In this document: in pieces, positions 1 to 63,321 of the stretch
Layout: the number at the start of each line of letters is the position of its first letter
How positions within the stretch are numbered: the first letter of the stretch is position 1
Source: Acidobacteriota bacterium
Lineage (GTDB): Bacteria > Acidobacteriota > Holophagae > Holophagales > Holophagaceae
DNA: 64,000 bases
Reading direction: 5' to 3'
Assembly (NCBI GenBank): GCA_021794095.1
Contig: JAJYRN010000002.1
Location: forward strand, 109,076-173,075
Position numbers and translations under genes: made by a program
The notes under the pieces: model-generated
What the model was told of the DNA's origin: nothing
Databases searched by the model: none
The model's input: the letters and a program-made list of their open reading frames with translations, nothing else

Positions 1-237
1 GGACGCAGAGGGCGCGGAGCGACCGGGCGGTTCCCCCCGTTCATGACAGACCCGCAGACCGGGCTAGGCCCGGGCAGCGGGTGGGGGGCGCGGGGGGGAC
101 GCAGAGGGCGCGGAGCGACCGGGCGGTTCCCCCCGTTCATGACAGACCCGCAGACCGGGCTAGGCCCGGGCAGCGGGTGGGGGGCGCGGGGGGGACGCAG
201 AGGGCGCGGAGCGACCGGGCGGTCCCCCCCGTTCATG
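1..237 (-). repeat. 96-bp tandem repeat array with G-rich hairpins (BIME-like), 2.5 copies
   Basis: Two full 96-bp units (1-96 and 97-192) are identical apart from the edges, and a third partial copy (193-237) has one T-to-C change. Read on the minus strand, each unit starts catgaacggggggaaccgcc and can form two hairpins. The first pairs a G-run (ggggggaac) with gtcccccc about 20 bases later; the second is ccgggc-cta-gcccgg. The array begins 2 nt after the stop of the TPR gene and is in the same orientation. The same two-hairpin layout recurs at 34,445-34,600. The unit length is a multiple of three, so an open frame crosses the array, but it looks like a composition artefact. The left end may continue outside the window. 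Confidence 0.85.
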
Positions 238-238
238 A

Positions 239-766
239 TCAGCAGTTCTCGGTGAAGGCGAAGAAGGAGGATTTGCGCATGGCCGCGAAATCCGGCTCCA
301 TGTGCCACAGGAAGATCAGATCGGAATCCAGCTCGAGGGCCTTTTTGAGGGCTTCGGCGGCGCCTTCGGCGCGTTCCTCCTGGGCCAGGGCGACCGCCCG
401 CAGGTAGAACAAGATGCCCCGCGAAGGCTGGTTCTTGATCAGCTTGTCCAGCAGCTTCAGGGCCGCGGCATGATCCCGGTGGTTGAGCAGGGACTGGATC
501 TCGGTCATGGGATCCGTCCCGGCCGCCTCGGCGGGCTTGAGGTGGGCCTGGGCGAGGTTCAGATAGACCTGGGCGCTCCGCTTCACCGCCCAATCCCCCG
601 AGGCCTGGGCCGCCTGGGCCAAGGCTTCGAGCAGGGGCACCGCTTCGGCGTACTTGCCGCCATCCACCAGCTTGACCGCCATGGCGAACTGGCTGGCGAG
701 CTTAGGGGGCGGTGCGGCCGCGGGAGCGGGTTTGGGGGCTGCGGTGGACTTGGCCTTGGTCGCCAT
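239..766 (-). CDS. TPR-like repeat protein of unknown role
   Basis: A 175-residue soluble protein. Residues 1-22 are a low-complexity Ala/Pro/Lys leader. The rest is helical with tetratricopeptide spacing: a helix pair around residues 28-70 (GGKYAEAVPLLEALAQ), another around 95-125 (HRDHAAALKLLDKLI) and a third at 118-150. No signal peptide or catalytic motif is seen. TPR proteins usually mediate protein-protein contacts; the partner cannot be guessed. The gene is monocistronic, and its stop is followed directly by the 96-bp hairpin repeats, which may act as its transcript end. Confidence 0.7.
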   Translation of the reverse strand: MATKAKSTAAPKPAPAAAPPPKLASQFAMAVKLVDGGKYAEAVPLLEALAQAAQASGDWAVKRSAQVYLNLAQAHLKPAEAAGTDPMTEIQSLLNHRDHAAALKLLDKLIKNQPSRGILFYLRAVALAQEERAEGAAEALKKALELDSDLIFLWHMEPDFAAMRKSSFFAFTENC

Positions 767-33808: not shown

Positions 33809-34444
33809 ATGGGCACTGTCTCGCTTCCGGTCCTCTCCGCCGCCTGGCTGGGATACGGCCTCCTGCACTCGCTGCTGGCATCGCTGGCGGTCAAACGCCG
33901 ACTGGCGGCCCGGTGGCCCCGCCTCATGCCCGCCTACCGCCTGCTCTACAATGGGGTGGCCCTGGTGGCCCTCGTGCCCATGGTGGTGTGGCTGCTTCGC
34001 GATTCTGGCCCTTTCCTCTGGCGCTGGACCGGACCCGCCGCATGGGTGGCGAATGCCCTGGGCCTCGCGGCCCTGGCGGCGCTGCTGATGCCCGGCAGCC
34101 CCTATGACACCGGGTCGTTCCTCGGCTGGCGGGCCTGGCGAGAAGGGCGGACCGATGGGGGCGATGCCGAACCCTTCCGCGTGGGAACCCTCCACCGCTT
34201 TGTGCGCCACCCGTGGTACGCCTTGTCCCTGATTATCCTCTGGACCCGCGATATGACCTCCCTCCGATTGGTGTCGGCATGCTGGATCACGGCCTATTTC
34301 GCGATCGGTTCTCGGCTGGAGGAACGCAAGCTCATCCACTTCTATGGCGATCGCTATCGCCGCTACCGGGCGCGGGTGGCGGCCTTCATTCCGCTGCCCT
34401 GGAAGATCCTCAGCCGGGCCGAGGCCCGGGATCTGGAGGGCTAA
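33809..34444 (+). CDS. isoprenylcysteine carboxyl methyltransferase/NnrU-like membrane protein
   Basis: A 211-residue protein with about five membrane helices. The C-terminal part carries the ICMT-type SAM-binding pattern: RHPWYALSLIILW, then EERKLIHFYGDRYRRYRARV and FIPLPW. In bacteria this family includes methanethiol S-methyltransferase (MddA) and NnrU; which one this is cannot be told. Its stop is followed directly (0 nt) by the hairpin repeat array at 34,445. It is divergent from psd by 71 bp. Confidence 0.78.
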   Translation: MGTVSLPVLSAAWLGYGLLHSLLASLAVKRRLAARWPRLMPAYRLLYNGVALVALVPMVVWLLRDSGPFLWRWTGPAAWVANALGLAALAALLMPGSPYDTGSFLGWRAWREGRTDGGDAEPFRVGTLHRFVRHPWYALSLIILWTRDMTSLRLVSACWITAYFAIGSRLEERKLIHFYGDRYRRYRARVAAFIPLPWKILSRAEARDLEG

Positions 34445-34600
34445 CATGAACGAGGGGGGACCGCCTGCTCACCTTCGGTTCGCGATGTCCCCCCTCGTGC
34501 ACCCCCACGCGGGATCCCGGCTAAGCCGGGACGCCGCGTCTGCCATGAACGAGGGGGGACCGCCTGCTCACCTTCGGTTCGCGAGTCCCCCCTCGTGCAC
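34445..34600 (+). repeat. 99-bp-period hairpin repeat (BIME-like), second locus
   Basis: Two copies of a 57-58-bp element start at 34,445 and 34,544. Each begins catgaacgaggggggaccgc and closes with gtcccccctcgtgcac, so cgaggggggac pairs with gtcccccctcg over 11 bp. Between them lies a second hairpin, cccggct-a-agccggg (34,517-34,531), flanked by acgcgg/ccgcgt. The copies differ by one deleted base. The order (G-run hairpin, CTA-loop hairpin, G-run hairpin), the leading catgaac and the position right after a stop codon all match the array at 1-237. Confidence 0.88.
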
Positions 34601-34610
34601 ACCACGTCTG

Positions 34611-35189
34611 ATGCGCTGGACCCGGACGACTCTGCGCGATGCGCGCCGGATGCCCTGGAAGAACGGTGGCGGGATCACGCTGGAACTGGCTGTGGAGCCC
34701 CCCGGCGCCAGCCTGGAGACGGGTTTCGCCTGGCGCCTCAGCAGCGCCGAGGTGGCGGCCTCGGGCCCCTTCTCGGCCTTCCCGGGACTCGAACGCACCC
34801 TGCTGCTGCTGTCGGGGGACGGGTTCCAGCTTGAACTCGGAAGCCGCGGCTCCATCTGCCTGGATGCGCCCTTCGTGCCGGTGCGCTTCGCTGGGGACTG
34901 GCCCGCCCGTGCGGACTTGCTGGGTGGACCCTGCGTGGACTTCAACCTCATGGCCGATCCCACCCGGTGCCACGCCAGGCTGGAGGTCTGGCAGGGGGCG
35001 ACTCCGCTCCGGCTGCAGCTGGGCGCAGCCACGGTCCTGGTGTACGTTGCCCAGGGCACGGTGGCGGTTCCGCTCCTGGAAGTCCACCTGGGAGAGGGCC
35101 ATCTCCTGCGCCTGGACGGTGGTCCTGAGGATCTGGCGCTCCTGCCGGGGTACGGCGGGGCCTCCCTGATCGTGGTGCGGGTGGACTGA
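34611..35189 (+). CDS. HutD/Ves family cupin-like protein
   Basis: A 192-residue protein of the HutD/Ves bicupin family: RMPWKNGGGITLELAVEPPG at the N-terminus, WRLSSAEVAASGPFSAFPGLERTLLLL, and DFNLMADP in the middle are the family landmarks. HutD often accompanies histidine-use genes, but none is present here. Its biochemical role is unknown. ATG 34611 is chosen by homology; the open frame upstream runs through the repeat array and is not coding. Confidence 0.86.
   Translation: MRWTRTTLRDARRMPWKNGGGITLELAVEPPGASLETGFAWRLSSAEVAASGPFSAFPGLERTLLLLSGDGFQLELGSRGSICLDAPFVPVRFAGDWPARADLLGGPCVDFNLMADPTRCHARLEVWQGATPLRLQLGAATVLVYVAQGTVAVPLLEVHLGEGHLLRLDGGPEDLALLPGYGGASLIVVRVD

Positions 35190-62544: not shown

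Positions 62545-63321
<777 letters not shown>

Follow-up and report, generated by a model that had tools for sequence, protein, structure and literature searches.

The window, that is, the whole 64-kb stretch of DNA analyzed here, contains two arrays of a composite two-hairpin repeat, each lying behind the stop codon of a gene and pointing in the direction of that gene (Table 1). On the minus strand, window positions 1-237 consist of a 96-bp unit repeated 2.5 times with 99% matches, beginning one base past the TGA stop of a TPR gene and running past the window edge, where a 10-N assembly gap interrupts the array. On the plus strand, positions 34445-34611 hold one complete 99-nt unit and one unit without hairpin 2, beginning 0 nt past a TAA. 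Regarding the host genes, the TPR label was confirmed via Pfam, whereas the label of methyltransferase given to the gene upstream of the second array proved weak (PEMT, E = 0.13, below the Pfam cut-off).

Table 1. Features of the two repeat loci, in window coordinates.
Feature	Position	Strand	Basis
Complete unit of 96 nt, at the head of the array in the array's own orientation	142..237	-	sequence reading, repeat search
Second complete unit, near-identical to the first	46..141	-	sequence reading, repeat search
Start of third unit; beyond the window edge the array runs on over a 10-N gap	1..45	-	
Hairpin 1 (G-rich stem), first unit of the 1-237 array	187..231	-	folding
Hairpin 2 (CTA loop), first unit of the 1-237 array	146..178	-	folding
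TGA stop of the TPR gene at 239-766 (Pfam TPR_16), the presumed insertion target	239..241	-	
Stop codon (TAA) of the gene upstream; its counterpart is TGA in G027 and, as aligned, in G001 and G011, where the site is empty	34442..34444	+	
Complete 99-nt unit	34445..34543	+	
Hairpin 1 of the 34445..34543 unit	34450..34498	+	folding
Hairpin 2 (TAA loop) of the 34445..34543 unit	34507..34539	+	folding
Second unit, without hairpin 2, ending in CTGA (34608-34611)	34544..34611	+	
Gene of the HutD family, whose ATG shares bases with the TGA ending the element (TGATG)	34611..35189	+	domain search and base-level reading

At both loci the repeat opens with CATGAAC and continues through a G-rich hairpin 1 and a linker to a hairpin 2 with a 3-nt loop. 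These parts agree with the original prediction, except that the CTA loop it described occurs only at the 1-237 locus (TAA at the 34445 locus) and that the stem is longer, the conserved closing GGGGGGAC/GTCCCCCC of hairpin 1 reaching further outward through ACGAGG/CCTCGT. Folding of the two window units gave -54.6 and -57 kcal/mol, with z-scores of -3.0 and -5.8, respectively, against shuffled sequences. An Rfam scan of the window returned nothing but a tRNA. A 9-bp tandem repeat (CCTCGCCTT, 6.6 copies) also lies in the window at 63054-63112.

A two-hairpin family confined to Geothrix

In early searches, a pattern comprising the head and stem of the unit matched many contigs, and a DNA search returned 53 places. 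A covariance model built from 26 units, and tuned to the source genome (G000), identified 107 non-overlapping units in 77 loci of that genome, namely 59 single copies and 18 arrays of 2 to 6 units, spread over most of its contigs. The proposed family was thus borne out genome-wide, far beyond the two loci in the window, and its copies are strongly oriented with respect to genes. Among 60 sampled genomes, the model matched 35 of the 37 belonging to the genus and none of the 23 from outside it; the source genome and G027, a close relative, are copy-rich, with 0 to 15 copies found in the other sampled genomes by this model tuned to the source genome. A pattern scan of ~85,000 species genomes gave, among the matches listed, only Geothrix, Holophagaceae, or Acidobacteria records, and the named matches are Geothrix (G. 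fermentans, G. terrae, G. campi, and others). No copies were found in the viral contigs or the plasmid and phage collections searched, the element had no Rfam match at the gathering score (15.7 bits for the best weak match, where the cut-off is 47), and no published description of these Geothrix repeats was found in the literature searched. The family is confined to Geothrix and consists of two-hairpin inserts of ~99 bases. A further array with ~91-nt spacing (CCTGTCCCGCGTTGGGACGCC...; L101, G000:C26:108323-108913) matched the model weakly and may represent a remote subfamily or another kind of hairpin repeat.

A typical copy spans 99 nt and reads Y-ATSAACGAGG, hairpin 1 (GGGGGGACCGCC...GTCCCCCC), hairpin 2 (12-15 bp with a 3-nt loop), and GTCTGA, with aligned units starting YATSAAC and ending GTCTGA. 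Of 29 single copies, 21 measure 99 nt between the upstream triplet and the terminal CTGN, and other subtypes have periods of 96 or 97. Single 99-nt copies such as L002:1498-1599 place their terminal TGA in the reading frame of the upstream TGA, so that read-through would add a short tail and then stop again. An ATG directly follows the TGA in CATGAAC copies and is absent in CATCAAC, TATCAAC, and CCTGAAC copies. Array periods are 94-99 nt, and unit identity averages 96% within an array against 70% between arrays, indicating that after insertion the arrays expand chiefly through local duplication, in the manner of VNTRs. Two arrays contain 10-N assembly gaps (L019:1635-1644 and the L032 array, G000:C26:98242-98842), and the copy numbers of both are therefore unreliable.

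The original prediction had attributed the conserved stems to selection on RNA or DNA structure. Compensatory change is indeed present, at least in hairpin 2, where two-sided changes occur at 11 of 15 pairs; the covariation score of the whole structure was 0.273 against 0.092 when shuffled (0/500 shuffles reaching it), and slid versions of the structure reached at most 0.134. Hairpin 1 yields no covariation evidence because its closing stem hardly varies, and an apical pairing within it was dropped as barely above shuffled loops (3.76 vs 3.37 pairs). Selection on the sense RNA, however, is not favored. Counting one unit per array, stem mismatches were A-C in 56 cases and G-T in 24 (p = 0.0005, with related copies not being independent), or 33 and 17 once the loosest three positions were removed (p = 0.03). 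Given that sense-RNA selection should favor G-U, the A-C excess gives it no support; as a hint, the excess would fit a fold in the opposite strand or asymmetric mutation.

Placement behind TGA and empty sites in relatives

Using a simple, home-made codon-usage gene caller trained on the window, 34 of the 77 arrays begin exactly 0 nt past a called same-strand stop and 39 within 2 nt, so that the gene-oriented placement directly behind stops that was claimed for the two window loci extends across the genome. In a stricter placement test, 32 arrays lay at 0 nt, compared to 0/77 in an opposite-side control (3' side of opposite-strand genes). Other Geothrix genomes showed the same placement: of 81 distinct copies, 43 lay at exactly 0 nt from a stop and 49 within 1 nt, with TGA as the stop in 45 of these 49. 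Overall, TGA makes up 75/81 element stops against 35/56 window stops (p = 2e-5). The three bases preceding the array are TGA in 41 of 77 cases, where about 1 is expected, among them 10 of the 43 arrays lying away from any called stop, which argues that TGA itself is favored, stop or not. Copies at stops nevertheless outnumber those at other non-coding CTGA sites (~25 to 7 observed, against 18 to 18 available in the window), an excess that may reflect selection or insertion bias.

Comparison with relatives provides a view of the sites without the element. At several loci, the flanks joined without the element match relatives unbroken. The 34445 locus is empty in G001, which reads ...GGAGGCCTGATGCGCTGG, the upstream TGA overlapping the downstream ATG as TGATG, and G011 is similar; thus, in the relatives' empty site the ATG of the HutD-family gene overlaps the TGA of the upstream gene instead of that of the element. 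G027 carries GGGCTGA, a short element ending in GTCTGA, and then TGCGCTGG, and in the source genome the upstream stop has changed to TAA. As the insert ends in CTGA, both of the overlapping stop and start codons survive and both genes remain intact, the start-codon overlap having been read at this window locus alone. No clear recent transposition was found, most copies examined in the close relative G027 being shared, decayed, or partial.

Even where CCGA or CTGC precedes a copy, its 3' end is CTG, in most cases CTGA, suggesting that this CTGA is part of the element and not a duplicated target. Target-site duplication of TGA and an element-borne TGA are not fully separable, although the CCGA- and CTGC-flanked copies favor the latter. 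The best reading is that the position of the element comes mainly from TGA targeting, which explains both position and orientation given the TGA at non-stop copies, the empty sites in relatives, and the CTGA at the element's own 3' end. On these same three points, the original prediction that placement behind stops marks a functional 3'-end element found no support in that form.

Probable mobility, rival explanations, and known repeat systems

Taken together, the repeats quite probably constitute a family of small non-autonomous mobile elements that is restricted to Geothrix, MIRU-like or REP-like in character, and targeted to TGA. Such an element would insert immediately 3' of TGA (favored context CTGA) in one orientation relative to it; the CTGA carried at its 3' end would leave the upstream gene its stop and restore a downstream start overlapping the TGA, and tandem arrays would then grow, mainly via local duplication. 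That most surviving copies lie behind stop codons is explained by copies inside genes having probably been purged. Movement may have occurred via single-strand processing of the hairpins by a trans-acting enzyme, possibly now lost. Y1_Tnp (PF01797, RAYT) is absent from the 99%-complete source genome and from copy-rich G027, and was found in 3 of the 37 genus genomes. IS110 and a reverse transcriptase (RVT_1) were rejected as mobilizers, given that they occur in a few genomes, do not track copy number, and are absent from G027. G027 contains none of Y1_Tnp, IS110, and RVT_1, and no mobilizing enzyme was found among these searched families. In one genus genome, G019, a 157-aa Y1 transposase is present in six or more copies of equal score (L179, L181-L185), an IS200-like expansion, alongside few copies of the hairpin element.

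A different account would have selection place and keep the hairpins behind stops as functional 3'-end RNA elements, acting through mRNA stability, Rho termination, or a slowed terminating ribosome. The zero distance to the stop, the sense orientation, and the excess of copies at stops over other non-coding CTGA sites all speak for it, as does one orthologous copy that four species retain in the same position, at 94.5% identity (host gene end 91.3%, downstream 88%). Being as conserved as the host gene end, this copy indicates that some copies may be kept for a function; a second copy, which follows a putative acyl-CoA dehydrogenase gene, is less tightly shared. E. coli REPs located ≤15 nt from a stop are also reported, in work cited in PMC12306157, to stall ribosomes and lower translation, and they are the nearest precedent should the Geothrix hairpin affect expression. 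As an explanation of the family, however, we consider this account rather unlikely, since copies away from called stops are also preceded by TGA, relatives commonly show empty sites, the mismatch bias runs opposite to the G-U tolerance of a sense RNA, and hardly any copy is followed by a T-run. A role for the hairpins at mRNA 3' ends is possible under the mobile-element reading as well, where a hairpin starting ≤15 nt from the stop may alter termination, mRNA decay, or host-gene translation. Intrinsic termination was rejected, as hairpin 2 is followed by CTGA and a T-run is nearby at only ~2 of 77 arrays.

The manner of movement has its own competing explanations. A genuine REP family whose mobilizing RAYT (Y1 transposase) has since been lost would fit the hairpins, the 3' CTGA, the insertion 3' of a short fixed target, the lack of inverted ends, and the single orientation, all resembling IS200/IS605-type single-strand transposition; yet the family has no GTAG tag, and the scarcity of Y1_Tnp in the genus and its absence from both copy-rich genomes make this origin unlikely. 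It is quite unlikely, too, that the copies moved by an undescribed TGA-targeting mechanism, independent of Y1 transposases and of known insertion-sequence enzymes, of the same kind as that behind the transposase-less MIRUs and CGTC REPs. Slippage of tandem repeats alone, that is, minisatellites without mobility, would produce the regular periods and near-identical units, but is refuted as a complete explanation by the 59 single copies, the dispersal over most contigs, and the empty sites; highly improbable in that sense, it accounts only for array growth.

Several known repeat systems can be compared with the mobile family favored here. The ends of attC sites follow RYYYAAC/GTTRRRY, a consensus that the Geothrix element ends do not fit, and an integron relationship was set aside. 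Rickettsia palindromic elements and other untagged palindromic repeats are mobile, ~100 nt long, without a known enzyme, and may insert within reading frames; the Geothrix family resembles the Rickettsia elements in its size and its lack of a known enzyme, but sits behind stops instead. Untagged palindromic repeats without a known enzyme are also covered in PMC3733652. Like GTAG REP/BIME sequences with their RAYT, the Geothrix repeats are extragenic palindromes found downstream of genes, high in copy number and limited to one taxon (PMC3733652), but they form head-to-tail arrays instead of head-to-head dimers and have two different hairpins in a fixed order. Membership in the GTAG group was rejected: the repeats are dispersed, high-copy extragenic palindromes, but they lack the unpaired GTAG tag and the genome lacks a RAYT. 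The original prediction, which noted no REP tetranucleotide and no RAYT nearby, was correct on both counts, the RAYT being missing from the whole genome. The CGTC-tagged REP superfamily likewise has no dedicated transposase (PMC3733652), and many Geothrix copies read CGTC at the 3' end. Their geometry differs, however, with stems of 12-15 bp vs 8-9, a loop of 3 nt vs 4-5, and no CCA tail; the CGT is paired with ACG in the stem of hairpin 2, which has 15 paired columns and a 3-nt loop, and membership was rejected on this basis.

In our analysis, the behavior of the Geothrix element is closest to that of the MIRUs of mycobacteria, which are apparently mobile, insert at start codons with little disturbance of expression, and carry an internal ORF coupled to the gene (PMC12548453). 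Both are short, apparently mobile repeats at stop/start junctions, oriented with the gene, often tandem, and sparing both genes; in Geothrix, insertion at such a junction with the TGA kept and gene orientation was observed, the start overlap as read at the 34445 locus. Mycobacteria belong to a different phylum, and the Geothrix sequence looks unrelated to that of MIRUs. The Geothrix element further differs in its strong two-hairpin architecture with covariation, in the many copies without an ATG near the 5' end, and in a placement that the upstream TGA defines, with or without an overlapping start codon.

The family represents an apparently independent case, in another phylum, of MIRU behavior, in which a tiny mobile repeat lands at a TGA and spares both genes. 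With cultured Geothrix containing few or many copies, clean empty sites, and mostly no Y1 transposase, the movement of transposase-less repeats becomes testable in this genus. The occupied and empty sites also offer natural with/without pairs for the effect on expression of a strong hairpin directly behind a stop codon.
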